This document shows, piece after piece, positions 167 through 25,133 of a stretch of 64,000 nucleotides of DNA (position 1 is the stretch's first letter; every line of letters starts with the position of its first letter). A program made the position numbers and the translations under genes. Source of the stretch: a virus; IMG/VR virus record IMGVR_UViG_3300019458_000020, positions 1 through 64,000 of that record. The stretch is one strand, 5' to 3'. The notes below the pieces were generated by a model that worked only from the letters and a program-made list of their open reading frames with translations, was not told the origin of the DNA and did not search any database.

Positions 167-901
167 ATGAAAATACTGGCATCTACGCTCAATCATAATT
201 TACCGGAGCTAACAGACAACTTGACAGAACAACTTAGACGTTCAAAATTTACTGATTATGAATTGATGATTGTAGATAATGGCTCTAAGGAACCGTTGGC
301 TAAATCCACGACTCATGTTTCTCCTGAGAATACTTTCTTCGGTGGAGGAGTAAATCTTATTCTGGATTACTTTCTTAATGATACCAACCATGAATATCTA
401 TACATTTTCAATAACGATTTGATATTTCATGGACATGGATTCCTAGAACAATCCGTTAGAGAAATGGAGGCTGCTGGTGCAGACGTTTATTCACCATCAG
501 TAATCAATATGTCTCTTGACCAATGTGCATGGAAACAAATGCATTGTTGGGGAACGGGAGGAACAAGAGAAGTGAAGTGGATAGATTTTCAATGTCCAAT
601 ATTAAGTAGAAGATTGTGTCAACACATAAAAAGTTACCCTGACCAACTTGTGTATGGATGGGGTGTGGATTTTTATACCGGAATGGTGTGTCAACAATTG
701 GGATTCAAAACCGTCGTGTCTGATGCCAATTCTATAGGTCATTTAAATTCCCAAACTTTAAAACTTAATAAGGTAAACATCGGATTAAATGATTTTTGTC
801 AACGTGCCGACGCAAATATGTTTGCATTTTTTAACAGTCAACCAGAACTTACCTCACTATTTCATCATTACAGAGAGTGGGCTAAAAATTATACATTATG
901 A
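167..901 (+). CDS. GT-A fold glycosyltransferase (family 2-like)
   Basis: A 244-residue protein with features of a family-2-like glycosyltransferase: an N-terminal beta strand and loop ending in VDNGS (residues 36-40), which in this fold contacts the nucleotide, and an FNNDL segment (81-85) in the place of the metal-binding DxD motif. It probably moves a sugar from a nucleotide donor to an acceptor in the cytoplasm. The stop overlaps the next start as ATGA, so it is translationally coupled to the methyltransferase. Donor and acceptor cannot be read from the sequence. Confidence 0.75.
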   Translation: MKILASTLNHNLPELTDNLTEQLRRSKFTDYELMIVDNGSKEPLAKSTTHVSPENTFFGGGVNLILDYFLNDTNHEYLYIFNNDLIFHGHGFLEQSVREMEAAGADVYSPSVINMSLDQCAWKQMHCWGTGGTREVKWIDFQCPILSRRLCQHIKSYPDQLVYGWGVDFYTGMVCQQLGFKTVVSDANSIGHLNSQTLKLNKVNIGLNDFCQRADANMFAFFNSQPELTSLFHHYREWAKNYTL

Positions 902-1530
902 AATTACTTACCGAAATAGCTAGAAATCACAAAACTGATAAAGGAGAAGAAGGACACGTTTATACCGAAGTCTATGATGATTATCTTTTACCAATAAGAT
1001 TAAAGGAGATGAATTTTCTTGAAATAGGTGTATTCGACGGAGAATCTATGAGAATGTGGAAAGAATATTTGCCTAATGCGAATATTATTGGTTTGGATAT
1101 TAATCCTGAATGTAAGAAACATGAAGGAGAGAAAAACAAAGTTTATATAGGTTCTCAAGTAGATGAAATGGTTTTATGGAAGATTTTTAATGAAAACAAA
1201 CCCATTTCAGTTGTAATTGATGATGGAAGTCATCGATGGGATCACGTTATTAGAACTTTTGATATGGTATTTCCTTTATTGGCACCAGGCGGCTTATACT
1301 TTGTTGAAGATTTACATACTTCTTACGCAGGCGACCCTTGGGCCGCAGGTTCAGAGACGGCTATCAATTATCTGAAGGGATTAATTGATGATGTTAATCT
1401 TCGTGGTAAATCTTTTATGGGATTGAAGGAAGTTGCCGGAAAACCATTATCATACAATGAACGTTGTATTGAGTGGGTTCATAATTACAAAAGCCTAATG
1501 GTTATTAAGAAGCGTCAAGAATCACTATGA
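898..1530 (+). CDS. SAM-dependent methyltransferase of the sugar/macrolide O-methyltransferase type
   Basis: A 210-residue class I methyltransferase. Motif I is LEIGVFDGESMRMW (41-54), an acidic ribose-binding loop follows at GLDINPE (65-71), and VIDDGSH (107-112) with GGLYFVEDLH (131-140) matches the pattern of MycE/CmcI-like enzymes that methylate sugars or small molecules. In this operon it most likely methylates a glycan hydroxyl. It overlaps both neighbours by ATGA. Methylation of a protein or nucleotide is not excluded. Confidence 0.75.
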   Translation: MKLLTEIARNHKTDKGEEGHVYTEVYDDYLLPIRLKEMNFLEIGVFDGESMRMWKEYLPNANIIGLDINPECKKHEGEKNKVYIGSQVDEMVLWKIFNENKPISVVIDDGSHRWDHVIRTFDMVFPLLAPGGLYFVEDLHTSYAGDPWAAGSETAINYLKGLIDDVNLRGKSFMGLKEVAGKPLSYNERCIEWVHNYKSLMVIKKRQESL

Positions 1531-2351
1531 TAAGTTGTGAATTCCACGGAAGACTAGGAAACAATATGTTTCAAGTCGCTGCGGCCGCGGCTTTAGCAAA
1601 AAAAGTCAATGTGGAATTTTCTGTACCAAAATACATGTTAGCAGGTCATAGAGGATCACTTCCATCCGACCTTAATGGTTTTGATTATCCATATAATTAT
1701 CACAATGATTCTGATGTAGAACATCATGAAAAAATCGGAGAGAAGGATTCCAAATTTACTGATTTGCCTATAAGGGATAACATCAAACTTTGTGGATTTT
1801 TTCAATCCAGCAAGTATTTTGATGATATTCGTGAAGAGTTGATTCAAAAATATTTTAAACCAGCAGATTGGGTATTGAAACTCTCGGAGAAATATAAAGT
1901 AAGTGATAAAAGTCTCGGAGTATGTGTAAGACGAGGCGATTATTTGATGTTACAACACAATCATTGTGTATTATCTCCAGAATTTTACCAAAATACCTGT
2001 TCTGATGTTGTTTCTAATGAGAGTATTGATTCGGTATATGTATTTTCCGATGATTTTGATTGGTGTGCTGATGTATTTAGTGAAATATCGCCCATATTTG
2101 TCAAGGATGATAAGTTTGTTCAAATGTATTTAATGACACAAATGAAACATATCATACTGGCTAACTCGACCTTTTCTTGGTGGGGTGCCTATCTCAACAA
2201 TAAAGGAGGTCGAATTTATTTTCCCGACCCTTGGTATGGCCCGGCCAACGATAATATAGATGTCAGTGGTTTGATTCTTCCTAATTGGAGAGTAACTAAA
2301 CACGAAAGAACAATTCAATCATATCTGCAACACGAAGCATTGAAAGGATAA
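1527..2351 (+). CDS. Alpha-1,2-fucosyltransferase-like protein (GT11)
   Basis: A 274-residue protein with the hallmarks of glycosyltransferase family 11. The N-terminal GRLGNNMFQ (8-16) is the family's opening motif, VRRGDY (134-139) is the donor-binding HxRRxD-type motif with Cys-Val in place of His-x, YVFSDDFDWC (171-180) is the second conserved block, and LANSTFSWWGAYL (211-223) is the third. Family members transfer fucose from GDP-fucose. No GDP-fucose pathway is visible in this window, so the donor would come from the host or from genes elsewhere. The start is coupled to the previous stop by ATGA. Confidence 0.88.
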   Translation: MISCEFHGRLGNNMFQVAAAAALAKKVNVEFSVPKYMLAGHRGSLPSDLNGFDYPYNYHNDSDVEHHEKIGEKDSKFTDLPIRDNIKLCGFFQSSKYFDDIREELIQKYFKPADWVLKLSEKYKVSDKSLGVCVRRGDYLMLQHNHCVLSPEFYQNTCSDVVSNESIDSVYVFSDDFDWCADVFSEISPIFVKDDKFVQMYLMTQMKHIILANSTFSWWGAYLNNKGGRIYFPDPWYGPANDNIDVSGLILPNWRVTKHERTIQSYLQHEALKG

Positions 2352-3062
2352 ATGAAATTAGCAATATGTCTATCCGGCCAACCAAGATTGTTTGATGTCG
2401 CCTACGAATCGTTAAAGCGATTTTACTTTCCAAAGTATGAGTGTGATGTATTCATTCACACATGGAAGGATTCGAACTATAATTCTCAGTTCTCAAATAA
2501 AGTCGTCTCGAATTCCGAAGACCTTCATGGAAATTATATCAAACTGTTCAAACCTAAAAAGGTTATGATAGAAGACCAGATTGTATTCGATAAGACCGGT
2601 ATCTCAGACCCTATATGGGGATGTAAGTTAAATTCGGTATTATCTATGTTTTACTCTGTTCAATTGTCCAACAAACTAAAATGTAAATTTGAACGAGAGA
2701 ATGATTTCAAATATGATTACGTAATGAGAATTAGAACGGATTTGTCATTACACCGACCAATTATTCCGGAAGAAATTCTTCCAAAACACATTGGTTTATT
2801 TAATTGGACTCAGGATTCCGAATATAATGAAAGAGGATTTTCGGATGTATTCTCTGTCGGACCATCAGATTTAATGGATGTATATTCTAATGCTTTTGAT
2901 TCCTTACATCACTATCTATATACGGATAATACATGGAATTTTCATGATTCCAGATTAAGAAACGAATATTTGTTACGAAGACATTTAGAAGTGAATCAAA
3001 TCTCCGTTCAACGATTTCATCATTTAGATGCACAAGACCCTAGTTTCGGAATAGTAAGATGA
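2352..3062 (+). CDS. Putative glycosyltransferase-like protein
   Basis: A 236-residue protein that begins directly after the previous stop. It opens with MKLAICLSGQPRLFD and has CDVFIHTW near residues 35-42. This pattern is seen in poorly characterised proteins of surface-glycan clusters, where a strand-turn SGQxR and a later FIHTW recur. A YVMRIRTDL segment near residue 120 could be the metal-site region of a GT-A-like fold. The operon position supports a role in glycan assembly. The biochemical function is not established. Confidence 0.6.
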   Translation: MKLAICLSGQPRLFDVAYESLKRFYFPKYECDVFIHTWKDSNYNSQFSNKVVSNSEDLHGNYIKLFKPKKVMIEDQIVFDKTGISDPIWGCKLNSVLSMFYSVQLSNKLKCKFERENDFKYDYVMRIRTDLSLHRPIIPEEILPKHIGLFNWTQDSEYNERGFSDVFSVGPSDLMDVYSNAFDSLHHYLYTDNTWNFHDSRLRNEYLLRRHLEVNQISVQRFHHLDAQDPSFGIVR

Positions 3063-3979
3063 AAACAGACATTATAATTCACGTTTTGCCGTTTGAGATT
3101 GATAGATTTGAATATCAAATACTAGAACTAAAAAAGTGCAGTTCCTTATTGAATACTGACGACCAAATAATTATTGATGCAACATTGAATATCAATGATA
3201 TGTTAATCGATTGGAAAAATTCATCCATTCCTAAAGATTTCTTTATTGACCGATTTCTTCATCTCAAAAATCTATGTGATTACGCCGAATGTGTATTTGA
3301 TGTGGATGATAAGGAAAAATGTCTAGGTATAAACGCCAAGAGAAGAAACAGTATTAGGGAACGAGCAGACAAGTGTGACTCGTTTTTGTATCTGGATAAC
3401 GATATGGTCTATCCACATCATGCTTTAAGATATGCATTAGATGCAGCAAAATTGGTAAATACAGAATATTACCTTATCTCTCCACAATCCACCCAACTAT
3501 GGGATGATTCGTGGAAGGTATTGGTCAATGATTCATATTCGAATGTAGGATGTGATAAAATCACAGAACAGAATCCATTTGAAGTCTGTTCAAGAGTATA
3601 TGGAGATATTGAAGTTGTTCCTGTAGATGGATTCAAATTCGGTGGTGGATGGTTTAATTTATTTTCATCCAAACTATTATCTTATACCGATATTCCTGAT
3701 GAATTGGGAGGATATGGATTAGATGATATGTATGTTATGCAGGCGTGCCAAATTATGAAAAGCTTCGGTATGCCCGTTCAACAGTATATATTAAAAAATC
3801 TTGTGGTAACGCAAAATTACCGTTATGGTTATCACATGCAGGATGTGTATAAGAAGTTTATACCATTCATAAATAAGAAAGAAATGTTCATAACCAATGC
3901 AAAGAACCATTATCAAATGGTGATTCAAAGATTTTGGGAGAAATGTAAACATGATATCATTCATAATCCCTACTCGTAA
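3059..3979 (+). CDS. Putative GT-A glycosyltransferase
   Basis: A 306-residue protein coupled to the previous gene by ATGA. The segment FLYLDNDMVYP near residue 118 has the shape of a GT-A metal-binding DxD site, and the later GGGWFNLFSSKLL and GYGLDDMYVM blocks resemble the acceptor side of family-2-like enzymes. The first 100 residues lack the usual family-2 opening motif, so it is a divergent member. Its 3' end overlaps the next start by 29 bases, which implies coupled translation. Confidence 0.6.
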   Translation: MKTDIIIHVLPFEIDRFEYQILELKKCSSLLNTDDQIIIDATLNINDMLIDWKNSSIPKDFFIDRFLHLKNLCDYAECVFDVDDKEKCLGINAKRRNSIRERADKCDSFLYLDNDMVYPHHALRYALDAAKLVNTEYYLISPQSTQLWDDSWKVLVNDSYSNVGCDKITEQNPFEVCSRVYGDIEVVPVDGFKFGGGWFNLFSSKLLSYTDIPDELGGYGLDDMYVMQACQIMKSFGMPVQQYILKNLVVTQNYRYGYHMQDVYKKFIPFINKKEMFITNAKNHYQMVIQRFWEKCKHDIIHNPYS

Positions 3980-5195
3980 TAATTTGCCTTACGTAAAGAC
4001 GGCAATTTCTAGCATTCGAAAATTTTATTTGGGTGCAGAAATCGTATTATTAGATGACAACTCTACCGATGGAACTGATAAATGGGTTAGCGAAACTTAC
4101 GACCCACATCTTACATATTATAAAAACGAAGGCAGACAAGTGGGACACACCGTTCTCTATGATATCGGTATTAAAATGTGTAAACATGAAATCTTCTCAA
4201 TATTTCATGCCGATATGATTTGTGGGCCTAATTATGTTGAAAATCTTCTTAAACATTTGAAGCCAGAAGGTGTAATTTCAGCAACAAGAATAGAACCACC
4301 GTTACATCCTCCCGGAAAAGAAAAAATTGTGATGGATTTCGGCATGTATCCCGGGGATTTTAAACAATCCGAGTTTATTACATTTTGTCGTGATTCCCAA
4401 GAGAATTCGTCTAATAAGGATGTAACGACAAGGGGTATATTCGCACCGTGGGCAATGTATAAAGAAGATTTCCTAAAAATCGGCGGGCATGATTCTTTGT
4501 TTTCTCCATTCCCATACGAAGATTCCGATATATTTCAACGTTTTATTTTAGCCGGATACAATATCAAACAAAGTCGTGATTCTTTTGTTTATCATTTTAC
4601 ATGTCGTGGACACAGATGGACAGAACAAGTTCAAAAAGATGATAACTTCTATAAGTTATGTTGTGCAAAAAACATGAATCACTTTATACGAAAGTGGGGA
4701 AGCTGGATAGAAAACGACGAGTTATGTTATCCAGTTATCAAACCATTCTACAACATCGGATTTGTGGTTACAAATTGCAATCTCCAATTACTCGGTGCAT
4801 TGGAACCTTGGTGTTCTACCATCTCATGTGATTGTCCAGAATGGGAATCTTACATCAAACAAGTTCAATCAGGAACTCCATTCGACTTAAAAAAGAGGGT
4901 GTTTTATAGGTCGGCTGAAATCAAGAATGACATAATTGTTCATTTTGATGCTTCGCAGTTGACACAAGAAAGATTCACATTCCTTACTCAATTACCAAAA
5001 ATACTTTTGGATAGTGGAGATTTGGGAGAAATGAAATTCGACATATTTACGTTCTTCATAAAGAGAATGCCAAGGTTGGAGTCATTGTTGATTCACAATA
5101 ACAATGAACTCTATCGTTCACGATTAATTGAAATTCCGGTGACCGACGAATATTACACCAACGAATTATTTAGAGTCTTTCAAAATACCAAGTAA
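3951..5195 (+). CDS. Glycosyltransferase family 2 with an extra C-terminal domain
   Basis: A 414-residue protein. Residues 1-230 form a classical family-2 domain: ISFIIPTRNN at the N-terminus, LLDDNSTDGT near 34-43, and FHADMICGPNYVENLL as the metal-site block near residue 86. The remainder (about 255-414) has no recognised domain and may bind the acceptor or a partner. It is the last gene of the + strand glycan operon. Its last 26 bases overlap, tail to tail, the 3' end of rmlB on the other strand, so both C-termini are encoded by the same DNA. Confidence 0.8.
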   Translation: MISFIIPTRNNLPYVKTAISSIRKFYLGAEIVLLDDNSTDGTDKWVSETYDPHLTYYKNEGRQVGHTVLYDIGIKMCKHEIFSIFHADMICGPNYVENLLKHLKPEGVISATRIEPPLHPPGKEKIVMDFGMYPGDFKQSEFITFCRDSQENSSNKDVTTRGIFAPWAMYKEDFLKIGGHDSLFSPFPYEDSDIFQRFILAGYNIKQSRDSFVYHFTCRGHRWTEQVQKDDNFYKLCCAKNMNHFIRKWGSWIENDELCYPVIKPFYNIGFVVTNCNLQLLGALEPWCSTISCDCPEWESYIKQVQSGTPFDLKKRVFYRSAEIKNDIIVHFDASQLTQERFTFLTQLPKILLDSGDLGEMKFDIFTFFIKRMPRLESLLIHNNNELYRSRLIEIPVTDEYYTNELFRVFQNTK

Positions 5196-6135
5196 CGGTG
5201 TCTTTTAAAGCTTTGTCGAATGGTGTGTGTTCAATCTTACCAAACGTGTGTTCAAAATCTGTGGTGTCGATTGCATATCTAAAATCGTGACCTTTTCTAT
5301 CTTCTACGAATTGTATTGATTTTTCTGGGTCTTTATTACACAATACACAGAGTTTTTTGACCAGGTCAAGATTTCGGATTTCATTATTTCCACCAATCAA
5401 ATACTGGCCTCCTGGCTGTCCACGTTTTACAACTTCCCAAACACACTTACAATGGTCATCGACGTAAATCCAATCTCGAATGTTTGTTCCTATTCCATAA
5501 ACAGGAACCGGTTCGTCGTTCTTCAGCTTCTTAATTGCTAGAGGAATAAGTTTTTCTGGATATTGTCTTGGACCAAAGTTATTTGAACAGTTGGTTATCA
5601 TGACAGGAAAATTGTGTGTTCTATAGAATGATTTACACAATAAATCCGATGACGCCTTCGAAGCGGCATACGGTGAATTTGGATGGTATGGAGAACGTTT
5701 TGTAAATGGCAAATCACCATCACCTAAATCACCAAACACTTCATCGGTGGAAATGTGAATGAATCTTACATCTGTTCTTCCTTTCCATAATTCCAAGAAA
5801 GTATTCAATAGAGTGAAGGTTCCGTTGATATTGGTTGTAATGAACGATTGGCCGGATTCTATCGACCTATCCACATGTGATTCAGCAGCAAAATGAACAA
5901 TTGTGTCGATGTTATATCGTTCGTATATTGTCTTCAGAAGAGATACGTCATTTATGTCTCCTTTGTAAAACTCATATCTATTACGAAGAACAAAATAGTC
6001 AGGTAAATTTTTGTGGCTTGCTGCGTAGGTGCATAAGTCAAGATTCACCACTAATTCCACTTCATCCTTTTTGGCCAAGAGATGAATAAAATTGCTACCG
6101 ATAAAACCAAGTCCCCCCGTGCAAAGTATTCTCAT
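5170..6135 (-). CDS. rmlB: dTDP-glucose 4,6-dehydratase
   Basis: A 321-residue extended short-chain dehydrogenase. The NAD-binding GGLGFIGSNF lies at 7-16, AESHVDRS (84-91) is the RmlB signature, the catalytic Thr-Asp-Glu is in STDEVFGD (T130, D131, E132) and the Tyr-x3-Lys pair is Y156 and K160. It converts dTDP-glucose to dTDP-4-keto-6-deoxyglucose, the branch point for deoxysugars. RmlA is encoded about 3.6 kb away on the same strand; the two are separated by a + strand gene pair. All catalytic residues are intact, so the enzyme should be active. Confidence 0.93.
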   Translation of the reverse strand: MRILCTGGLGFIGSNFIHLLAKKDEVELVVNLDLCTYAASHKNLPDYFVLRNRYEFYKGDINDVSLLKTIYERYNIDTIVHFAAESHVDRSIESGQSFITTNINGTFTLLNTFLELWKGRTDVRFIHISTDEVFGDLGDGDLPFTKRSPYHPNSPYAASKASSDLLCKSFYRTHNFPVMITNCSNNFGPRQYPEKLIPLAIKKLKNDEPVPVYGIGTNIRDWIYVDDHCKCVWEVVKRGQPGGQYLIGGNNEIRNLDLVKKLCVLCNKDPEKSIQFVEDRKGHDFRYAIDTTDFEHTFGKIEHTPFDKALKDTVTWYFERL

Positions 6136-6335
6136 ATATTTTTAAATTCTTTTCTAAGTTGTTTAATAGATTTATTGAATTTTGCGTTGCACTTTTGTGA
6201 ACAAAATTTAGTTTTTATTATATTTTCTGTTCCTTCTTTTTTGAATAATTTTTCACAAAAATCACATCGAATCGAAAAAATAAACACATCAGTATTTATT
6301 TGACTCTTTCTTAGGAATATCTTATTCAGTATCAT
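6132..6335 (-). pseudogene. Remnant of a zinc-finger homing endonuclease
   Basis: A 67-residue frame overlapping the start of rmlB by four bases. It holds a paired-cysteine knuckle, CDFCEKLF followed about 15 residues later by FCSQKCNAKF. The same Cys-x2-Cys ... FCS-x-x-C arrangement opens the large endonuclease at 46783-48339 and sits inside the RNR intein. No nuclease core follows, so this is most likely an N-terminal scrap left after decay of a homing gene. A short functional zinc-finger protein is a less likely alternative. Confidence 0.5.
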
Positions 6336-6415
6336 CCATCATACATATCATTTTAAATTCCGACCCACCAATAATAAAAATACGCTTGTATCATACAATT
6401 TCTATTTATTGCAAT
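6336..6415. promoter_or_regulatory. Divergent control region with candidate late element
   Basis: An 80-base gap between divergent genes. On the + strand it holds CTATTTATT at 6401-6409, seven bases before the ATG of the membrane protein; this matches the recurrent element seen before many genes here. Upstream lies a perfect dyad, TTGTAT-C-ATACAA (6386-6398), that could bind a regulator. No clear host-type -35/-10 pair is seen for the minus strand. Confidence 0.4.
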
Positions 6416-6763
6416 ATGACACTGTTATTAATTTTATCCTGTTTTATCGCAATATTTTTACTTGCTTGGTTCAAATCCGATTTCATTATTGAATACGGAA
6501 AGTTACTGGGATTATCCAAGTTATTAAAACTTCGTGAATATAAAATGAAAAAATTGGAACATGCTAATCCCGTTCCAACATATACTCAATTCTTGAGAAT
6601 GACTTATGATAACTTCTTCGTTAAATTGATTACTTGTCCTATTTGCTTAGCCATTTGGTTATCAATCATCGTAGGAATATTCTATCATCTATCTACTTTT
6701 ATTCCTGTCATTTGTATAATGTCTTTGATATTTTACGGAATTTGTAGAAAACTATTAACTTAA
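6416..6763 (+). CDS. Small integral membrane protein
   Basis: A 115-residue protein counted from the ATG at 6416; an upstream TTG at 6386 would add ten residues, but the ATG has the candidate late element at the right distance. It has an N-terminal hydrophobic segment (LLLILSCFIAIFLLAWF), a charged middle, a TCPICLAIWLSI motif with two cysteines leading into a second membrane segment, and a third hydrophobic stretch near the C-terminus. Similar Cys-Pro-x-Cys membrane proteins occur in large phages, but their job is unknown. It pairs with the next gene, two bases on. Confidence 0.65.
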   Translation: MTLLLILSCFIAIFLLAWFKSDFIIEYGKLLGLSKLLKLREYKMKKLEHANPVPTYTQFLRMTYDNFFVKLITCPICLAIWLSIIVGIFYHLSTFIPVICIMSLIFYGICRKLLT

Positions 6764-6764
6764 T

Positions 6765-7055
6765 ATGGATGTCCGTGGCGTTGGTGCGTTCTTTTATTTT
6801 TTAACCAGCAATGGATTAAATGGAGTGAGTCCAGATACGAACGCATTTATAGTATGTGTTGAAGAATATAGCCGTCTTTGTGCATGTGACAGTCCTGAAT
6901 TTAGAGAGTCTAAACAAAATAATTGTAGAGCACTCTACGAAACATGTATATCTCGGTCGGATGGATTAAAATCTATATTCTTATCCAAGACACAAGGAAA
7001 CAGGATTACTTTTTATTCCGACCACGGAAAAATACTAAAAACTTTTTCTCGTTAA
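6765..7055 (+). CDS. Hypothetical protein
   Basis: A 96-residue soluble protein with five cysteines, including a CACDSPEFRES segment, and no recognised domain. It starts two bases after the membrane protein, so the two are probably co-expressed. Its TAA shares a TTAA tetranucleotide with the stop of the convergent gene on the minus strand. Cys-rich composition suggests metal binding or a disulphide, but this is inference only. Confidence 0.6.
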   Translation: MDVRGVGAFFYFLTSNGLNGVSPDTNAFIVCVEEYSRLCACDSPEFRESKQNNCRALYETCISRSDGLKSIFLSKTQGNRITFYSDHGKILKTFSR

Positions 7056-7321
7056 TTTCCGTCTTCTGGTTTAACATCAAATATATCCGATGGAAGTTCG
7101 GAACCATCAGGTAGATGCAATTTTCCATTTTTCAATTGTTCCTTGCCAGCTTCAAGTGTTCCTAAAACTACAGCCGCACCTGGGTCATGAGTCATATAAG
7201 ATAAGAAAGTAAGAAGGTCATAATCTACCTTTTCTCCATTATGAAACATAACTAATACTTCACAATCATCCATATCTTCGGGATAACGTGTTAATGCTTT
7301 TTTAAGATAACCTAATTTCAT
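7052..7321 (-). CDS. Hypothetical protein
   Basis: An 89-residue acidic protein beginning MKLGYLKKALTRYPEDMDD, with a predicted alpha/beta pattern (EVLVMFHNGEKVDYDLLTF) and no recognised domain. It is the last gene of the minus-strand sugar operon and starts one base after its upstream neighbour. Its stop shares TTAA with the convergent + gene. The opening pattern, in which a helix ends in YPxDxxD, recurs in small proteins of large phages, but no function is known to me. Confidence 0.6.
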   Translation of the reverse strand: MKLGYLKKALTRYPEDMDDCEVLVMFHNGEKVDYDLLTFLSYMTHDPGAAVVLGTLEAGKEQLKNGKLHLPDGSELPSDIFDVKPEDGN

Positions 7322-7322
7322 A

Positions 7323-7574
7323 TTATTCGTATTTCTTTGTTTCGCCTTGTTTGAAATTTTTGAACATGACTTTCCCTTCTGCGGCTAAAATCAACATTTC
7401 ATCCAGTTCTTGAATTAAATCATTCCTTTGTATATTCAAGATATTAGTTTTCCTCGTTGCATCAGCCACATCTTTGTCTGTCTTTGACTTATCTCTCTTC
7501 AATTCTTCGAGATGCCAAATTTTTAGGTTTACTATTCCGAGTTGGTCTATTAAATTCCCGAATGATACATTCAT
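7323..7574 (-). CDS. Small coiled-coil protein, DUF4254-like
   Basis: An 83-residue helical protein. The stretch LIDQLGIVNLKIWHLEEL, then LNIQRNDLIQELDE, resembles DUF4254 proteins found beside surface-glycan glycosyltransferases in bacteria, which would fit its place in a sugar operon. The start at 7574 is preferred because GGAAAG lies seven bases upstream; the ATG at 7589 gives five more residues but has no ribosome site. Function is not known; the family match is from memory of the pattern. Confidence 0.6.
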   Translation of the reverse strand: MNVSFGNLIDQLGIVNLKIWHLEELKRDKSKTDKDVADATRKTNILNIQRNDLIQELDEMLILAAEGKVMFKNFKQGETKKYE

Positions 7575-7655
7575 AGTTTTTCTTTCCATATACCGAAATA
7601 ATTTGTCTCGGAATATAATTTGTTATCTACTCTAAAAATCCCATATATTAATTTT

Positions 7656-8885
7656 TTAATCATTTCCAATGACTTTAAATTGTGGGCATGGAACAATAAA
7701 TTTACCACCAGCTTTTATGTAATCTGATTCTCTTTTTATAAATTCCGACAAAAAATGCCACGGGAGTATAAGTAAATAATCAGGTTTAGCTTTTCTCATT
7801 TCATCTTCCGAAAAAATTGGTATATTGGTTCCAACCGTCTTCAACCCCCACTTATACGGGCTTCTTTCGGCCATACCATCAATCAGTGTATGATCCAAAC
7901 CAAAATATTGTAACAACGTGTTTCCCTTGGTAGATGCACCATATCCCCACACCGTCTTTCCGTTAACTTTTTCAGTTTTAACAAAATCAACAACTTGTTT
8001 CTTTAGATTTTCTATTTTGTAATAGAAACTTTCCCAAACAACTAATTGTTTATCACCGACATGTCCATTGATCTTTTCATGAAACAACAGAGACTCCATT
8101 CTGAAAAGACAAACGTCTCTGTATGGTTGAGTTGAAAAGTTTTCTGTTTTAAACGTATCCTTTACAACGTATATTCTGAACGACCCACCATTTACATCGT
8201 TCAATTGACAATCTATAACTCTAAATCCATTTGACTCAAGAAGGTTTTTCATATTAGTCAATGTATAGTAGTAAATGTGTTCGTGACAAATGTTATCAAC
8301 TGCCACTTGATGAATCATAAGTGGTGTGTAACTCAATTGCAAAACAAACAGACCATCATCATCCATAACGTTATATACATCTTGTAAAAATGGATTTGGA
8401 TTATCCAAATCATAAAACATTGCTATACACGTCACTACTTTTGCTTTAAGATGGCCGAATTTTTGACTTCTATATGCTTTTTCACTAAAGTAATCTTGAA
8501 CAATAACATTTGCGTGGGTTTCGGATTCTTTCTTAAATGTATCATCGGCGGGGTCTATTCCGATTCGGATTATATTATCATCCAAAAAGCTTAAAAGAGT
8601 CCCATCGTTACAAGCAATATCCAACCATACATCATTTTCTTTTAGATTAACTAAACCACAAATCGAATGAACTATAGACTTTAGTTCATTTTTCATGGTG
8701 GCATTAATTCCGGAACGATACCAGTATCTTCCATACATAGTATCCAATGGTGCAGGCTTTTCTAGTCTGACCGCCCCTAAATTATTATCATAAACAAGTT
8801 TTATTTCTTGTTTAGGATGTGCTGTTTGACCTTCTTTAATAAAGTCAGACACATGTAATTCTCCGAGTGTAAATAATTCTTTCAT
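7656..8885 (-). CDS. Sugar C-methyltransferase (NovU/TylCIII type)
   Basis: A 409-residue protein with the three-part layout of nucleotide-sugar C-methyltransferases: an N-terminal segment, a central class I SAM domain (WLDIACNDGTLLSFLDD near residue 93, then IGIDPAD), and a C-terminal domain with the signature WGYGASTKGNTLLQYF and ILPWHF. The family methylates C3 of dTDP-4-keto-6-deoxysugars. The cysteines that bind zinc at the N-terminus of typical members are absent; here the region reads LFTLGELHVSDF. It sits one base downstream of the RmlD-like gene, which supports action on the RmlB product. Confidence 0.82.
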   Translation of the reverse strand: MKELFTLGELHVSDFIKEGQTAHPKQEIKLVYDNNLGAVRLEKPAPLDTMYGRYWYRSGINATMKNELKSIVHSICGLVNLKENDVWLDIACNDGTLLSFLDDNIIRIGIDPADDTFKKESETHANVIVQDYFSEKAYRSQKFGHLKAKVVTCIAMFYDLDNPNPFLQDVYNVMDDDGLFVLQLSYTPLMIHQVAVDNICHEHIYYYTLTNMKNLLESNGFRVIDCQLNDVNGGSFRIYVVKDTFKTENFSTQPYRDVCLFRMESLLFHEKINGHVGDKQLVVWESFYYKIENLKKQVVDFVKTEKVNGKTVWGYGASTKGNTLLQYFGLDHTLIDGMAERSPYKWGLKTVGTNIPIFSEDEMRKAKPDYLLILPWHFLSEFIKRESDYIKAGGKFIVPCPQFKVIGND

Positions 8886-8886
8886 A

Positions 8887-9738
8887 TTACCAAATCCAAT
8901 TCTTTAAACATTCTTCCAACGATTCATGAACTTCTTTCATTTCTAATCCAACACTTTTTAATTTATCGGTATTCAACACCGTATTTGACCTTGGTGCCCT
9001 CACCATCGAATTAAATTGTTCCAAACTTTCGAAATATTGAAATTCCTTTTCTACTTTTAGCGTTTTCTTTATCATTTCTACAACTTCAGTTGTTGTGATT
9101 TCGCCTTTATTGGTTACATTATATATTCCAAACGGAACCTTGTTTTGTAGGGAATCCAAACACACCTTTACGTATTCTTTTTTATTTGATAAGGAATTCT
9201 TAACATTTAAAAGTGTGTTGTATCTTAACAATTTAGAAATGTAGTTTCTTTCATTGTTTCTTTCTTCAAATGGAATTCTCAATCTCCAAATGTATTTATC
9301 AGGCAACTCACTCAACATTTCTTCTCCTAATGCTTTCGTTCCACTGTAAAAACTACATGGTTGATTTTTAAAGGAAAAATTCGGTTCATCTTCCTCGGTA
9401 AATCCTCCATCTTTATATCCATTGTATATACAGCCCGATGAAACATGTCCCAACACTATGTTTTTTCTTGCACATAAAGTGGCTAATATTCTAGGAAATA
9501 CTACATTACCTGATAATGTTTCTGATTTAGCATCCTCACACACATCTACATTTGGTTTTCCGGTGTATCCAGCACAATTGATAATAGTGTCTATTTTAAA
9601 TGTAGATATAAATCTATCAATCTCATCGATATTTGCATCTATTGCAGACATTGGATATGACCCTATTCCACGACCTGCTAATTGTCGTTGAAATTCATGT
9701 CCTATATATCCACTAGACCCAAATAATAAAACTTTCAT
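8887..9738 (-). CDS. dTDP-4-keto-sugar reductase, RmlD-like
   Basis: A 283-residue extended short-chain dehydrogenase. The cofactor loop is FGSSGYIGHE (6-15), INCAGYTG (53-60) follows, the catalytic Ser is in SSGC (100-103), and the Tyr-x3-Lys pair is Y131 and K135. It would reduce a 4-keto-deoxysugar made by RmlB. No RmlC epimerase is visible nearby, so it need not make rhamnose; the C-methyltransferase next door suggests a branched sugar instead. The start overlaps the rmlA stop by four bases. Confidence 0.82.
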   Translation of the reverse strand: MKVLLFGSSGYIGHEFQRQLAGRGIGSYPMSAIDANIDEIDRFISTFKIDTIINCAGYTGKPNVDVCEDAKSETLSGNVVFPRILATLCARKNIVLGHVSSGCIYNGYKDGGFTEEDEPNFSFKNQPCSFYSGTKALGEEMLSELPDKYIWRLRIPFEERNNERNYISKLLRYNTLLNVKNSLSNKKEYVKVCLDSLQNKVPFGIYNVTNKGEITTTEVVEMIKKTLKVEKEFQYFESLEQFNSMVRAPRSNTVLNTDKLKSVGLEMKEVHESLEECLKNWIW

Positions 9739-10598
9739 ACCAATCTCTCTAAGTAACTTTTATAATCACTTTTTGGTAGGCTTCCTACCGATTCCTTAAA
9801 TTGTTCTTTAGAAATGAAACCATTTACTAAACATGATTCTTCATAACATCCAATCATTATTCCCTGTCTTTCTTGGACAGATTGAATGTATGCTGATGCT
9901 TGAAATAATGTGGCTGGGGTACCGGCATCCAACCATGCTGTTCCTCTTTCCATAATTTTGGCTGTTAGTGTTCCTTCTTGCATATACATTTTTAACAAAT
10001 CCACTATTTCTAACTCCCCTCGTGTGGATGGCCTTAATGTATTAGCAAAATTAGAAGCCATTCCATCAAAATAATACAGACCCGGTATAGCATATTTACT
10101 CTTTGGTTGTATTGGTTTTTCTTCTAAAGAAATAACGTTACCCATTTTATCGAACTCAACTACACCATAAGCTCTTGGATTATTAACTTCGTATCCAAAC
10201 ACCGACGCTCCTTTTGGTGGAGTTATAACATATTTGTATTTATCAGGAGGTTGAATATTTCCATGAAATATGTTATCTCCGAGAATCAAACAGGAGGGTT
10301 TTTCTTCCAAGTAATCCTCAGCAATAATTAATGCCTGAGCTAATCCTTTTGGTTGGTCTTGAATCGCATATTGTATGCACAATCCCCATTTGTTTCCGTT
10401 TCCTAATAAGTTTTTGTAAAAATCAATGTATTGAGGGCTTGTTATCAATAATATCTCTTTTATTCCGTTATTGATTAAAGTGGTCAACGAATAATAGACC
10501 ATCGGTTTATCATATACAGGCAATAGTTGTTTATTAACCATTGTTGTCAATGGATATAATCGAGTTCCTGACCCACCTGATAAGATTATGCCTTTCAT
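9735..10598 (-). CDS. rmlA: Glucose-1-phosphate thymidylyltransferase
   Basis: A 287-residue nucleotidyltransferase. GGSGTRLYPLT (8-18) is the nucleotide-binding loop, NKQLLPVYDKP (22-32) carries the catalytic Lys, and LGDNIFHG (near 106-113) holds the metal-binding Asp. It joins dTTP and glucose-1-phosphate to make dTDP-glucose, the substrate of RmlB. Length and all motifs are normal for the family. It is the second gene of a minus-strand operon that goes on to the RmlD-like enzyme and the C-methyltransferase. Confidence 0.95.
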   Translation of the reverse strand: MKGIILSGGSGTRLYPLTTMVNKQLLPVYDKPMVYYSLTTLINNGIKEILLITSPQYIDFYKNLLGNGNKWGLCIQYAIQDQPKGLAQALIIAEDYLEEKPSCLILGDNIFHGNIQPPDKYKYVITPPKGASVFGYEVNNPRAYGVVEFDKMGNVISLEEKPIQPKSKYAIPGLYYFDGMASNFANTLRPSTRGELEIVDLLKMYMQEGTLTAKIMERGTAWLDAGTPATLFQASAYIQSVQERQGIMIGCYEESCLVNGFISKEQFKESVGSLPKSDYKSYLERLV

Positions 10599-10850
10599 TT
10601 ATTTACTTTGATGATTTTGATTTAAATAATTAACAATTTCATTTACCAATTGATTACATCCTTCTTCGGATTCTAATAAAGCCAGATCGCCGTCGGTGAG
10701 GCCAAATACAAACACCTTTCCGAGAGTCCACACAGCAAGTTCAACATCTGTATCCTTACATGTAATAGAATGACTTCCAGTAAATGATTCCCCCATTGCT
10801 TTCAGGGGAAACGTTTCATTAAGTAGTTTGAATAGATGTCTGGTTTTCAT
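10599..10850 (-). CDS. Hypothetical protein
   Basis: An 83-residue protein with no recognised domain, directly upstream of rmlA with no gap. The sequence alternates strands (ELAVWTLGKVFVFGLTDGDL) and ends in a polar helix. It overlaps the 3' end of the DruA-like gene by 32 bases, so it is probably expressed with it. No function can be given. Confidence 0.55.
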   Translation of the reverse strand: MKTRHLFKLLNETFPLKAMGESFTGSHSITCKDTDVELAVWTLGKVFVFGLTDGDLALLESEEGCNQLVNEIVNYLNQNHQSK

Positions 10851-11589
10851 TTTTGTTTAATCTTTCTTTCCAATTCCACACAAGAGGTTTTACAAACATT
10901 ATCTTTTGTGGTGATTTAGTTATTATGTATTCTTTTCCTTCGTCGTATCCATACTTCTCAAGAGCAGCTTTTGGGTCTTTTCTTGCTAATTCTCCCCTAG
11001 CTCCTGTTTCCTTTTTCCATAAACCCAATGGGCCTTTTCTAATAGAATTTCCTGATGTCTTTCCTACTTCTATCCAATTAGATGCACGGTATATCGCACC
11101 GTTTCTTAATTTCTCTCCATTATATTGTTCTACTCGTTCCGGTTGAACATAGGTTTCTATCATCAGTAACGGTTGATTATACTTCTCTTTCCATCTTTTT
11201 GCACCTTGTATGGATAATTGTTTTAAAACCATACTTCCGGTATTTTTTATGGTTATATTCTTTTGAATGAAACAACAACGAGAATTGTTTGCTAACATTC
11301 CTAAATTCTTGATTCTAGTTTCTTTATCCCATCCGATATAGTCATCTCGACAGGATATAGCAATAGTTGCAGAAGATAAGCCGATGGCTCCTATGTGATT
11401 ACCGGATTGAGTTTCGTAGATTAACCATCGTATGTTTCTGGTAGGGGAATCAGTATATTTTACGTAAGAATGGTATTTATCAATAGTTTCTCTGAATAAT
11501 TTGTTCTGTTCCGGAGAGGAACATTCTACTAAAAATACCGGCGTTTTTACAGTATCAGAGTAATCAAATATGGACAAAGAAAAAGACAT
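10819..11589 (-). CDS. DruA-like DUF4338 protein
   Basis: A 256-residue protein matching the DUF4338 pattern of the Druantia defence protein DruA. Seen directly: a WLIYE strand followed by HIGAIGLSSATIAISCRDDY and IGWDKETRIKNLGML (about residues 74-108), NNSRCCFI, then LLMIETYVQPER and AIYRASNWIEVGKTSGNS. These blocks occur in this order in DruA. DruA's molecular activity is not settled in my knowledge. A second divergent DUF4338 gene (13104-14312) and a Mom-like gene (20305-21078) lie nearby, so a role in DNA modification or counter-defence is plausible but inferred. Confidence 0.8.
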   Translation of the reverse strand: MSFSLSIFDYSDTVKTPVFLVECSSPEQNKLFRETIDKYHSYVKYTDSPTRNIRWLIYETQSGNHIGAIGLSSATIAISCRDDYIGWDKETRIKNLGMLANNSRCCFIQKNITIKNTGSMVLKQLSIQGAKRWKEKYNQPLLMIETYVQPERVEQYNGEKLRNGAIYRASNWIEVGKTSGNSIRKGPLGLWKKETGARGELARKDPKAALEKYGYDEGKEYIITKSPQKIMFVKPLVWNWKERLNKNENQTSIQTT

Positions 11590-13103: not shown

Positions 13104-14312
13104 TTAACGTCCCACATCGTTAAAATATATCTGTCTAGCTTTTTCATAGGACATTCCACTCATATCTCCATAAAAGAGTTTCGTAGAGTTGAGCGGACCT
13201 GATGATTTTAATTTCTTATATCGTTCTATGGCTTTTGGTCGCCACCAATCCAATATGGCTTTTGTATCATACTGAAACAGTGGTTTCAAAATCAAATCCT
13301 TTTCTTCGATTTTATTTGATAGAAATTCTTTTGTGTTTTCGTAAAAACAAGAATAATATACACCCCGCTCAAATCCATGAACATAGTTAGATGATTTGAT
13401 TTGAGCAGAATCGAATATCATATTTATGACTCTTAATTTAGCTCCTGTAACAGGACCAGAAACATCTTCCTTCTGTGTCATCTTTTTCTCATATTCAGAT
13501 GATTTGTTTATCTTAATCCAATCATGCCACTTCTTATAAATTTTTTCTTCAGGTTGAATGGCAATCTTGCCGGCCGACGTTCCGCATTTATGCCACCATT
13601 TTAAACTATTATACATGGAGAATGAACCATAAAGGCTTGTCGTCGTCATTCCTACTAAAACAGAATCATACGTCCGTTTCCAAGCATCTCTGACTACTTT
13701 GGAAACTACCATTGCAGCGGATAACTTTCCTCCTAAGAATGGATAACCAAATGGTTGAGTAGAAACAATCGTTGTTCCAATTGCTGAATTAACTAATTTT
13801 CCTTCCTTGAGTTTATTATCCATTGACCATCCAATATAATTGTCTCTATCTCCAATGGAAATTACATCACTGGCAATTGAACATATTCCTAAGATTCTTG
13901 GATTATCAAGATTTCCATCATGGATCCAAAACTTCATAAATCTACCAGGTGCCTGATTAAATTCGGCAGAACTACAAAAATAACGAAGTGTGGTCCACAT
14001 TTTGTCATCTTCTTCGTTATCTATCAATTGAATTGTTGGAACCATGTTTTCAATTTCTTTTATGGTTCGTTCTTCATCCATGATATCTTCTGGTGCCCAT
14101 ATTTTTGCCTTGGCTACGCCAGCACGATTAAGGTGAGAATTCATAGCCTTTCTATCAGATATTTCTTCCCATTTTTTTCGAAAAGTAAATTCCTCAACAC
14201 TCAATGATTTAAGATAATCCATATTTTCTATCAACTTCCTTGTTTCTACATTAAGGTTAAATGAAGCTTGGGATGGTGCTGACTCAAAAAATATATCCGA
14301 TGTATCTGCCAT
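13104..14312 (-). CDS. Divergent DruA-like (DUF4338) protein
   Basis: A 402-residue protein. The core repeats the DUF4338 order: ILGICSIASDVISIGDRDNY then IGWSMDNKLKEGKLVNSAIG (about residues 145-184), where the Arg-Asp-x-Tyr-Ile-Gly-Trp block is the same as in the protein at 10819-11589. It continues with PFLGGKLSAAMVVSKVV, a GMTTTSLYGSFS block and KWWHKCGTSAGK. The N-terminal 100 residues are extra. It has its own sigma70-like promoter. A function in DNA modification or counter-defence is inferred from family and neighbours. Confidence 0.72.
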   Translation of the reverse strand: MADTSDIFFESAPSQASFNLNVETRKLIENMDYLKSLSVEEFTFRKKWEEISDRKAMNSHLNRAGVAKAKIWAPEDIMDEERTIKEIENMVPTIQLIDNEEDDKMWTTLRYFCSSAEFNQAPGRFMKFWIHDGNLDNPRILGICSIASDVISIGDRDNYIGWSMDNKLKEGKLVNSAIGTTIVSTQPFGYPFLGGKLSAAMVVSKVVRDAWKRTYDSVLVGMTTTSLYGSFSMYNSLKWWHKCGTSAGKIAIQPEEKIYKKWHDWIKINKSSEYEKKMTQKEDVSGPVTGAKLRVINMIFDSAQIKSSNYVHGFERGVYYSCFYENTKEFLSNKIEEKDLILKPLFQYDTKAILDWWRPKAIERYKKLKSSGPLNSTKLFYGDMSGMSYEKARQIYFNDVGR

Positions 14313-21833: not shown

Positions 21834-24800
21834 TTAAGATTTTGGTTTGATTTCGCAAACATCATTGCTGCAAAACCTTTCTACGTCCGCTTCTTCGTGT
21901 TTTATTCCTTTAAACCTCACAGGTTTTAATTTAGAGGATAGTTCATCGTAAGTTTCAATAGAAATGGTTTCGTAGGGCATCTGTTCGTATGCACCCTTTT
22001 CTGTAATAGGCAAAAATGAAATACCTTTTAGTTGATATTGATAGAAATTTAAAAGATGTTTGATTTGGTTCGCTTCATCCTTTCTAAAAGAAATGGTACA
22101 TGAAACTTGATTGTCTGCCCAATATCTTTGTAAGAACGCTGCCAGTGCAGCTTGTTCCCATATACTTACATCTTTAACTGGTCTTAGATTATCACCAATC
22201 TTGACAGGAATTTCTACAACAACAGTGGTATCTTCCGACCCCTTACAATCTTCGATGTGATATCCGGCTTCTTTTAATGGTCCAACTAAATCACTATATT
22301 TTGAAAGTCGCATTCTCCTTATGTAACAAACATTTTCTGGAAAATGAACGCCGGGGGTCGCACCGGCGACCAAACTCACCGTTCCACTTGGTTTGATAGA
22401 AGTCTTCTTTATACTTTTTGGTATGGCTAACCAATCGGAATATACTTCATCATAATACTCAATTTTTTTGTATCCCTTTTCGCACCATGTTTTAAATTCG
22501 TCTATTCCACGGTTAGCTAAAAATTGAACTATACCACTCATACTACAACCTATTCTTCTATTTCTTAACATTACTCTATTAGTTTCCGGCCAATGAGTTT
22601 GACCCAACGTCACTGTCTTGGCATACAAATATGCATATTTAAGTGTAACGAGAAAATCATCAAGATTTTCATGATTATTTGGGAATGTTTCAACTAAGCA
22701 GCATAATTCATAGCTTTCCAATGATTGTTCGAGACAATTGATTATTATAATCCCATCTACTTGATTATCAGAAACTTGTGTAATAATTGAATAATTATAA
22801 TTATCATCTACTGTAATGTTATATACATCTTCTTTTTCTGATAAAAATGTCACCGATTTAACTCGATGATTGTATCCTTTTTCTTTTTCAATTAATTCTT
22901 TGTAGCTTTTTAGAACGTAAGGATTTTCGGTTTTAAGAGATTCTGGATTTCTTATTCTAAAAGAAATTTTTCTATTTCGGCATTCTCTTTCCCATTCTTT
23001 CTTTAAAGGATTCCTATCCAAAGATTGTTTCAAGTCTTTGAATATCATAATTTGTTGATGTAATGTGTCTCTTTGTTTATTCTCAAAGTGGATCTTCTGC
23101 CCCTCTTTTCTAAATTTGATTTGTCCTTCGTGTTTATTTTGACATGAATGTGAACAAAATACAACATGGCGACTTCCCCAAGATACTATCATTTCATCAT
23201 TACATGTAATACATTTCTTCTTTGCAAACATTCGTTCGTTTACCCAAACTGTTTCTAAATCTGTCTTTTTTGATTGTTCTATATAGTATTCTTTATCCCA
23301 TTCTTTTTTATTTTTTTTCATTTTTGATGAATATAGTTCTCTACATTCGTCAGTATGAGAATTGGACAATCTTTTTAAATACTCTACATCTTTGCATCTT
23401 TCTTTCGTTTTTTCTCCAATTAATTTTTTCGATTCTTCCGTATGTTGTCTTCCAAACATAGGATTGTTTTCTCCTTGATTATCGTGGTCAGCATGAAATT
23501 TACAATGATCCTTAAATGTCATTAATTCTAGGTTATCTATAGAATTATTTAATCCATTATAATCTTTGTGATGAACAACTATTCCACCTTTACACCACCC
23601 ATTTGATTTCGATTCATTATATAGTTCGTTCCATTTTTCTGGATTGTGAAATTTAACAATTAAACGATGTTCCATTTCTCTTTTCCTTTTTACATCATTT
23701 GTATCCATGCTTACAATATAATATTTATTAGGATTATCCTTAAACATCTTTTCTTTTCTTTTTTGAAATCTTGGAAGAGAGTCTCCAATTTTTAAATCTT
23801 TAGCACGACACGTTTCTCCATTTAATAAAATCATTTTGTGGTCTGGAGTGACTCTTAATTTTCCTCCTTCTTCAAATTCTATTTCTACCAATTCTGCATT
23901 TTCTCTAGTCTTTCTTGGATTTCTTCCCCACTTTATTTCTACCATTCCACTTTTATTCATAGAATATACTGCAACATCATTTCCTTCTTCTGCTAATTCT
24001 TTTATAGAAACTGCATTTCTTCCGTCTGCAACTGCAATGAGAGTGTCTCCGGTTAAACAAGGATTACCCCCTTCAACCCGATGGTCTTTGTGGTCCATTC
24101 CATTATTCATCCTTGAATATCCTTTCATATTTTCCAACCAAGCATATCCCGGCTCACCATTTACTTTAGTTCTCTCGGCAGCATTGGAATAATCCATTCC
24201 CAAATCACAAAAGATAGAATTGTTTGATGTCCATCCATATTCAGACCGATGTGGATTCTTTTTATAATTTTTTAAATCCAAATATTCTTCTGAGTTGTAG
24301 TCACCAAATACAATTTCAGCCGTTCTTCTTACATTTCCAGCAACAACACACTTTCCAATAAGATTCATAACATCAACAATAGTAGTTGTTGTTATTAGGT
24401 GTCCTACATTTTTATCAAAAATTACACGAAGGGTTTTATGAAGTTCAATCAAGGGTTGAGAACCGGATGAAACACCACCGAACCCTTTAATTGGTTCGCC
24501 CGCGGCTCTTATTAATGAATAATCGAAATGAACTTCCTTGGTTTCAAGTAGATAGGATTCGATTAAAAGTTTTGTTGATTCGACCCAACCCTCTCTCGTA
24601 TCAGCAATTTTATAAATATTGTCGGGTGATGGGCTTGGTTTCCCTACTTTAATTTTCCCTGACCCTTTACAATCAAATCCAACACCAACACCCAACATTG
24701 ACATATCCATCAAAAAACAGAATGATTTTGACACATCCTCTTTTATGGTTGAGGTCGAAACGAATGCACAGTTATTTAGTGCGGCATATAAATGTCTTTC

Positions 24801-25133
24801 TTCGGTTATGGGGCTTCCCATCGACCACAATCCTCTTCCGGGAGGAAGAAATTTCATATTGAACATTCTATCATACATCTCTTGGGCAGATTTTTGAGCC
24901 TTTATTGAATTCCATCCAAGTTTATGTTGTTCAATCCATACCTTTTGCATGTTGAACGTTCCTTCTACTACTCGTTGAATTGTTTCCCACCATCTTTCAT
25001 TATCTCCATTGGCTTTCAAACGGGAGTATGTTCTTAAATAAACTAATGCACCTAGTCCATTGAATCCGAACGGTGGTTTTTGTCTTTTATATTTATCGAG
25101 GAAGCTATCAGTCAGCCGAAATTTACCATTCAT
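21834..25133 (-). CDS. nrdJ: Adenosylcobalamin-dependent ribonucleotide reductase with intein
   Basis: A 1099-residue precursor of a monomeric class II ribonucleotide reductase, split by an intein at residues 359-799. The exteins (1-358 and 800-1099) carry the family residues: C122 in LNNCAF and C811 in LCCLVE as the redox pair, C800 in NCLEQS as the thiyl-radical cysteine, and a C-terminal CSNDVC pair that re-reduces the site. The spacing of C800 to C811 equals that of the Lactobacillus enzyme (C408 and C419). It makes dNTP precursors and needs host B12. The spliced enzyme would be 658 residues. Confidence 0.9.
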   Translation of the reverse strand: MNGKFRLTDSFLDKYKRQKPPFGFNGLGALVYLRTYSRLKANGDNERWWETIQRVVEGTFNMQKVWIEQHKLGWNSIKAQKSAQEMYDRMFNMKFLPPGRGLWSMGSPITEERHLYAALNNCAFVSTSTIKEDVSKSFCFLMDMSMLGVGVGFDCKGSGKIKVGKPSPSPDNIYKIADTREGWVESTKLLIESYLLETKEVHFDYSLIRAAGEPIKGFGGVSSGSQPLIELHKTLRVIFDKNVGHLITTTTIVDVMNLIGKCVVAGNVRRTAEIVFGDYNSEEYLDLKNYKKNPHRSEYGWTSNNSIFCDLGMDYSNAAERTKVNGEPGYAWLENMKGYSRMNNGMDHKDHRVEGGNPCLTGDTLIAVADGRNAVSIKELAEEGNDVAVYSMNKSGMVEIKWGRNPRKTRENAELVEIEFEEGGKLRVTPDHKMILLNGETCRAKDLKIGDSLPRFQKRKEKMFKDNPNKYYIVSMDTNDVKRKREMEHRLIVKFHNPEKWNELYNESKSNGWCKGGIVVHHKDYNGLNNSIDNLELMTFKDHCKFHADHDNQGENNPMFGRQHTEESKKLIGEKTKERCKDVEYLKRLSNSHTDECRELYSSKMKKNKKEWDKEYYIEQSKKTDLETVWVNERMFAKKKCITCNDEMIVSWGSRHVVFCSHSCQNKHEGQIKFRKEGQKIHFENKQRDTLHQQIMIFKDLKQSLDRNPLKKEWERECRNRKISFRIRNPESLKTENPYVLKSYKELIEKEKGYNHRVKSVTFLSEKEDVYNITVDDNYNYSIITQVSDNQVDGIIIINCLEQSLESYELCCLVETFPNNHENLDDFLVTLKYAYLYAKTVTLGQTHWPETNRVMLRNRRIGCSMSGIVQFLANRGIDEFKTWCEKGYKKIEYYDEVYSDWLAIPKSIKKTSIKPSGTVSLVAGATPGVHFPENVCYIRRMRLSKYSDLVGPLKEAGYHIEDCKGSEDTTVVVEIPVKIGDNLRPVKDVSIWEQAALAAFLQRYWADNQVSCTISFRKDEANQIKHLLNFYQYQLKGISFLPITEKGAYEQMPYETISIETYDELSSKLKPVRFKGIKHEEADVERFCSNDVCEIKPKS
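22737..24059 (-). mobile_element. Intein with HNH homing endonuclease, inserted at the RNR active-site cysteine
   Basis: A 441-residue intein beginning CLTGDTLIAVADGR (Cys1) with a typical block B RVTPDHKMILLNG. An HNH endonuclease core HHKDYNGLNNSIDNLELMT follows (precursor residues 521-539), then a NUMOD3-like ENNPMFGRQHTEESKK and a zinc knuckle CITC...FCSHSC. Block F is DVYNITVDDNYNYSII, and it ends ...GIIIIN with Asn799 and +1 Cys800. The residue before the terminal Asn is Ile, not the usual His, so splicing may be slower or use a variant mechanism. Confidence 0.88.

Follow-up and report, generated by a model that had tools for sequence, protein, structure and literature searches.

In bacteria, the synthesis of dTDP-L-rhamnose is described as the work of three enzymes following RmlA, namely RmlB, RmlC and RmlD, while a two-in-one enzyme is ascribed to plants, fungi and giant viruses (PMC6556577, PMC9614988), and a 2011 survey listed only four bacterial homologues of it, all from Verrucomicrobia (PMC3220709). 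The two-in-one enzymes closest to the one reported here are Arabidopsis NRS/ER (PDB 4qqr) and mimivirus L780 (7jid); L780 forms L-rhamnose from UDP- or dTDP-4-keto-6-deoxyglucose, and its Cys108 and Lys175 are catalytic according to mutagenesis recounted in a review (PMC9614988). Phage-borne dTDP-rhamnose genes are likewise known as the complete rmlABCD of phapecoctaviruses (PMC7552041), which differ from the present locus in having a separate RmlC and RmlD and, in the stretch read, no C-methyltransferase. We analysed the first 64,000 nucleotides (bases 1–64000, hereafter the window) of the 250,813-base virus record IMGVR_UViG_3300019458_000020, which is classed as linear and may be incomplete. 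For the sugar-nucleotide genes at 5170–10598 we computed gene identities and enzyme class, inspected the conserved active-site residues and compared gene order, sequence conservation and selective constraint. Based on these, we consider it probable that the phage encodes an RmlC-free, rhamnose-type sugar-nucleotide pathway with an added methyltransferase, giving C-methyl-L-rhamnose in part or whole.

The window comes from a tailed phage; it carries genes for a tail sheath, a tape-measure-like protein, a DnaB-type helicase and a ribonucleotide reductase, and the large terminase lies at ~109.6–111.2 kb of the record. The four pathway genes are complete open reading frames (ORFs), all on the minus strand, on which rmlA (9735–10598; glucose-1-phosphate thymidylyltransferase, 287 aa, the first of the four enzymes) is followed by an epimerase/reductase gene (8887–9738, 283 aa) with a 4-base overlap and then by the gene of a protein with a sugar C-methyltransferase fold (7656–8885, 409 aa) after a 1-base gap. 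Because of this overlap and gap, the three genes are probably co-translated as a coupled operon. The rmlB gene (5170–6135; dTDP-glucose 4,6-dehydratase, 321 aa) lies 1.5 kb downstream of the methyltransferase gene, with the minus-strand ORFs 7323–7589 and 7052–7321 and a few plus-strand ORFs in between. The whole locus recurs in identical order in a sister phage contig, L023, at 62–89% protein identity, and purifying selection was found on all five genes compared between the two (ratio of nonsynonymous to synonymous changes, pN/pS, 0.20–0.26). A promoter scan gave a signal no greater than in shuffled sequence.

RmlA and RmlB each cleared the equivalog threshold of its NCBIfam model (TIGR01207, 375 bits versus 361; TIGR01181, 391 bits versus 365), kept intact catalytic motifs (GGSGTRL, PKGLA and WLDAG in RmlA; GGLGFIG, STDEV and YxxSK in RmlB) and were 71–73% and 78% identical, respectively, to the L023 proteins. 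For these two enzymes an earlier annotation made from the letters of the window, here called the sequence-only reading, was borne out. It had also reported RmlC as absent, and a search beyond the window agreed with it, namely that no PF00908 match, and so no separate RmlC 3,5-epimerase of the canonical RmlABCD kind, was found in the whole, possibly incomplete record, the identical search being positive in 11 of 14 control genomes. No further sugar-nucleotide gene elsewhere in the record matched the reference set, and genes of GDP-mannose 4,6-dehydratase (GMD) and fucose synthase were not found.

The protein of 8887–9738, by contrast, is not the RmlD-like reductase it had been taken for. Among PDB sequences it matched Arabidopsis NRS/ER (4.8e-38) and L780 (6.7e-30) far ahead of the best RmlD (7.9e-13), and it gained only 82 bits with the RmlD equivalog TIGR01214, whose cut-off is 224. 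A Foldseek search with its AlphaFold2 model (predicted local distance difference test, pLDDT, 95) ranked 7jid first, 4qqr second and all RmlDs thereafter. RmlD was split from all NRS/ER-like sequences in the tree with full support (100), long branches meeting at that split, and the bacterial and phage sequences of NRS/ER type fell outside the plant/mimivirus pair. Its Cys103 and Lys169 align with the epimerase pair Cys108/Lys175 of L780, and the reductase Tyr-x-x-x-Lys is present as Y131 and K135; the epimerase Cys was found in 80/81 bacterial and 80/80 viral family members and the Lys in 80/81 and 79/80, whereas all six RmlDs compared have Tyr and Thr at these positions. An RmlD identity was thus ruled out by the equivalog failure, the epimerase Cys/Lys pair, the tree and the structure ranking, and from sequence and predicted structure the protein is assigned to the NRS/ER family, i.e. 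the predicted bifunctional 3,5-epimerase/4-reductase class. It is like NRS/ER and L780 in sequence family, fold, epimerase Cys/Lys, reductase Tyr/Lys and RmlC-free logic, but unlike them it is coded beside RmlA and RmlB, so that its sugars are probably carried on dTDP rather than UDP, and its branch belongs to a tailed phage and to Verrucomicrobiota/Planctomycetota. The same assignment bears on the proposal that, with RmlC missing, no epimerisation takes place and a branched D-series deoxysugar is built by RmlA, RmlB, a 3-C-methyltransferase and a simple 4-ketoreductase; the lack of RmlC in the record and the fold that the methyltransferase shares with 3-C-methyltransferases would suit it, but a reductase of NRS/ER type with the epimerase Cys/Lys pair is not a simple one, making this route very unlikely.

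We also considered an active site of the phage enzyme tuned to a methylated substrate: only I37 and T253 differ from family residues conserved at 85% or more, and T253 is not shared with L132, an unrelated phage contig returned to below and the other case of pairing with a C-methyltransferase. Separately, the standard set of another contig has beside it an additional, divergent copy (L088:11130–12116) with 34% identity to the protein of the window; Ser and Arg replace its epimerase Cys and Lys, and it is a candidate reductase-only paralogue.

An alignment-based scan recovered 133 relatives of the epimerase/reductase in bacterial genomes (80 kept), with Verrucomicrobiota and Planctomycetota as the main sources. 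In viral contigs, where a single-sequence search had returned none, it recovered 86 (80 kept). Among loci flanked by 3 kb or more on each side, RmlA and RmlB both lay within 4 kb at 38 of 46 in bacteria, with RmlC at none and this C-methyltransferase at none; in viruses outside the sister phage, both were found at 12 of 55 and a C-methyltransferase at one of 55. Within 36 genomes carrying the RmlC-free set, mostly drafts, 23 had no PF00908 match anywhere, which would indirectly support an NRS/ER-type enzyme that makes nucleoside diphosphate (NDP)-L-rhamnose unaided. RmlA, RmlB and the NRS/ER-type enzyme are thus predicted to be a complete NDP-L-rhamnose route by themselves, and because they already complete it, a missing RmlC is uninformative on branching. 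The sequence-only reading had held that the absence of RmlC favours a branched sugar over rhamnose; that argument was overturned by the recurrence of RmlA/NRS-ER/RmlB sets in dozens of bacteria and phages with neither RmlC nor a C-methyltransferase beside them, and the Verrucomicrobiota examined tended the other way, RmlC-family genes there often standing next to a C-methyltransferase.

In seven genomes with a PF00908 match (one of them weak), the match lay within a few kb of an ordinary-type C-methyltransferase, and RmlC-family genes adjoin such ordinary-type (YHEH) enzymes in Verrucomicrobiota at loci L198, L199 and L200 and in genomes G001, G006–G009, G027 and G034. From this adjacency, as counted in related genomes, the RmlC-type enzymes of these Verrucomicrobiota more likely serve sugars other than rhamnose, suggesting that many Verrucomicrobiota ‘rfbC’ annotations denote branched-sugar rather than rhamnose pathways.

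Each component is of a known kind, and what is new, relative to the sources read, is the recurrent RmlC-free RmlA/NRS-ER/RmlB set in bacteria and phages and its joining to the methyltransferase subfamily described below; a partial literature search found no published description of that set or combination. The set is common across Verrucomicrobiota, Planctomycetota and many phages and its reductase is easily mistaken for RmlD, so an absent rmlC should not be annotated as a broken rhamnose pathway.

The methyltransferase of 7656–8885 has the domains PF08484 (138.7 bits) and PF13489, and Foldseek aligned it at full length with MtmC, KijD1 and TcaB9, which are of the TylCIII kind (template-modelling score ~0.9 over ~411 columns). 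Its predicted fold includes the N-terminal region, which is zinc-binding in these three enzymes, but neither the PF08421 zinc domain nor any Cys in residues 1–70 was found, whereas the TylCIII/TcaB9-type zinc domain has four Cys; the zinc cysteines are indeed lost, as had been noticed earlier. Of the five TcaB9 residues whose mutants were crystallised according to PDB titles (Y76, H181, Y222, E224 and H225), three are kept as Tyr54, Glu202 and His203 (equivalent to Tyr76, Glu224 and His225), while Asp159 and Cys200 stand for His181 and Tyr222, so that the claim of an intact active site held only for the former three. Although it shares with TcaB9, MtmC and KijD1 the full-length fold, the S-adenosylmethionine (SAM) motif, the catalytic Glu-His and Tyr76, it belongs to a different subfamily (‘FYDL...CHEH’), whose clade is separate from and sister to the TylCIII/TcaB9/MtmC clade with support of 100/100. 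Because it lies apart from the characterised 3-C-methyltransferases and no function was found for its own clade, the TylCIII- or NovU-like label of the sequence-only reading, sound as to fold and PF08484, cannot be carried over to function on this phylogenetic evidence.

The Asp/Cys replacement marks the whole ‘CHEH’ clade, including zinc-bearing cellular relatives. N-terminal cysteines number mostly at least four in the cellular members and in a Synechococcus phage member, and 0 or 1 in the huge-phage branch; because the former carry Asp/Cys and mostly keep their cysteines, the loss of zinc followed the active-site change as a distinct event and is confined to the huge-phage branch. The closest phage record by methyltransferase is LR756501 (uncultured, 735 kb, 64% identity). 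These patterns also bear on whether the protein has ceased to C-methylate and instead methylates oxygen, acts as a scaffold or is a dead paralogue. The substitutions of H181 and Y222 and the disappearance of every zinc cysteine would fit such a fate, but its pN/pS versus L023 is 0.20, indicating strong purifying selection, the SAM-binding motif and Glu-His pair are retained, Asp/Cys is common to zinc-bearing cellular relatives and hence not decay, one relative has an in-frame, intein-size insertion at a conserved motif, and the cluster already has a MycE-like O-methyltransferase; we regard it as very unlikely. The relative with the insertion is a single 751-aa frame (L021:3944–6199) whose conserved motif is interrupted at GYGA|STKG by ~345 aa that are likely to be an intein.

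As to the substrate, the neighbours of the methyltransferase relatives were informative. GMD lies near the methyltransferase at most huge-phage loci and a GDP-fucose synthase-like gene often does, frequencies that stand without a random-gene control in these glycan-rich regions; an Azospirillum plasmid relative adjoins a GMD-like gene and rfbCBDA. Synechococcus phage DSL-LC02 has the consecutive genes GMD, methyltransferase and GDP-L-fucose synthase, placing a same-subfamily methyltransferase, along with glycosyltransferases, between a 4,6-dehydratase and a 3,5-epimerase/4-reductase as in the present phage, but with GDP-mannose rather than dTDP-glucose chemistry and with the N-terminal cysteines retained. 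GDP-fucose synthase resembles NRS/ER in acting on a 4-keto-6-deoxyhexose as 3,5-epimerase and 4-reductase (PMC12285223). What these neighbourhoods share would be a 4-keto-6-deoxyhexose intermediate, and it is to this class that the substrates of the methyltransferase fold belong. In the in silico virenose model of Coxiella (GMD, a TylCIII-like methyltransferase and GMER), methylation is likewise proposed at the 4-keto-6-deoxy stage before the epimerase/reductase (PMC3539893), on another nucleotide and by a methyltransferase of TylCIII type (44% identical). In contig L132 an NRS/ER-type gene is independently paired with a C-methyltransferase that is of the ordinary type and bears the zinc cysteines.

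The same neighbourhoods feed the rival that the phage makes plain dTDP-L-rhamnose only, the methyltransferase acting on a host-supplied NDP-4-keto sugar (e.g. GDP-4-keto-6-deoxymannose) or on a glycan and its place in the operon being incidental. The NRS/ER set does occur without any methyltransferase in bacteria and most phages, the methyltransferase relatives sit beside GMD, and the cluster has a GT11 fucosyltransferase-like gene; but the record yielded neither GMD nor fucose synthase, and the rmlA–NRS/ER–methyltransferase order is kept in the sister phage at ~73–78% protein identity, so we think this rival unlikely, if a serious one. A methyl-branched product, for which the earlier argument from RmlC has fallen away, is favoured on independent grounds: the fold of the methyltransferase, an operon coupling that the sister phage preserves, and relatives placed beside another pair of NDP-hexose 4,6-dehydratase and 3,5-epimerase/4-reductase.

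For this RmlC-free pathway with an added methyltransferase, we infer the reactions, the nucleotide, the fact and site of methylation and the acceptor as follows. RmlA would make dTDP-glucose and RmlB dTDP-4-keto-6-deoxy-glucose, on which the NRS/ER-type enzyme would invert C3 and C5 by Cys103/Lys169 and reduce C4 by Tyr131/Lys135 with NAD(P)H, yielding dTDP-L-rhamnose without RmlC or RmlD. The C-methyltransferase would most likely methylate C3 or C5 of the 4-keto intermediate, adjacent to the keto group and ahead of the final reduction, so some or all of the product may be C-methyl-L-rhamnose. The product is most likely dTDP-L-rhamnose and/or a C-methyl-L-rhamnose, which the neighbouring glycosyltransferases would use. 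The nogalose and noviose pathway chemistry of this fold makes L-evalose (3-C-methyl) and 5-C-methyl-L-rhamnose the candidates. The fuller version, dTDP-C-methyl-L-rhamnose (3-C- or 5-C-methyl) made by the RmlC-free NRS/ER route and a zinc-less CHEH methyltransferase that is itself exchangeable between dTDP-rhamnose and GDP-fucose chassis in huge phages, is put forward tentatively, at somewhat below even chances.

Several points weigh against a C-methylated dTDP sugar. The methyltransferase lacks two of the five residues probed in TcaB9 (His181 and Tyr222) as well as the zinc cluster; a search for characterised members of its subfamily found none; and it lies outside the NRS/ER set everywhere but in the sister phage, the pairing in L132 involving a different subfamily. 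Furthermore, UDP sugars are preferred by Arabidopsis-type enzymes and L780 (PMC6556577, PMC9614988), and it is the RmlA and RmlB partners alone that point to a dTDP preference of the bacterial/phage branch.

Opposite the pathway genes, six plus-strand genes (167–5195) probably serve glycan assembly; contig L023 retains this facing cluster in order as well. They comprise two glycosyltransferases of the GT2 family, at 167–901 (PF00535, 27 bits; cut-off 23.3) and at 3951–5195 (PF00535, 69 bits), the latter converging on rmlB with a 26-base overlap, a MycE/TylE-like sugar O-methyltransferase at 898–1530 (PDB 3ssm, 4.6e-20; 8ia9, 1.5e-18), a GT11-family, fucosyltransferase-like glycosyltransferase at 1527–2351 (PF01531, 79 bits), which gave no match when compared with solved structures, and two less clear genes. 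The nearby glycosyltransferases suggest virion or host glycans as the acceptor: they and the O-methyltransferase would transfer the sugar to a phage or host glycan and may methylate it further. Published guesses for phage rhamnose genes include DNA base glycosylation (PMC7552041) and host surface change (PMC12911398), and the locus offers a ready test of how phages construct unusual sugars for their own glycans. The genes 898–1530 and 8887–9738 are paralleled by mimivirus R132 and L780, also a MycE-like O-methyltransferase with an NRS/ER-type enzyme (PMC10117803, PMC9614988).

Between the methyltransferase gene and rmlB, the minus-strand ORF 7323–7589 encodes an 88-aa DUF4254 protein (PF14063, 38 bits; cut-off 27) that accompanies the methyltransferase in several huge phages and is kept nearby in contigs L001–L008 and L021–L023. 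Upstream of the rmlA operon, two genes on the same minus strand (10819–11589 and 13104–14312) encode DruA-family proteins (PF14236, 88.7 and 70.2 bits), PF14236 being the family of the Druantia defence protein DruA. Farther along, the ribonucleotide reductase gene at 21834–25133 on the minus strand (1099 aa) has HNH-endonuclease matches at residues 460–681 and therefore probably carries an intein or other insertion, and the minus-strand tail sheath protein of 54899–58069 is very long (1056 aa), its main sheath match covering only residues 744–1053.

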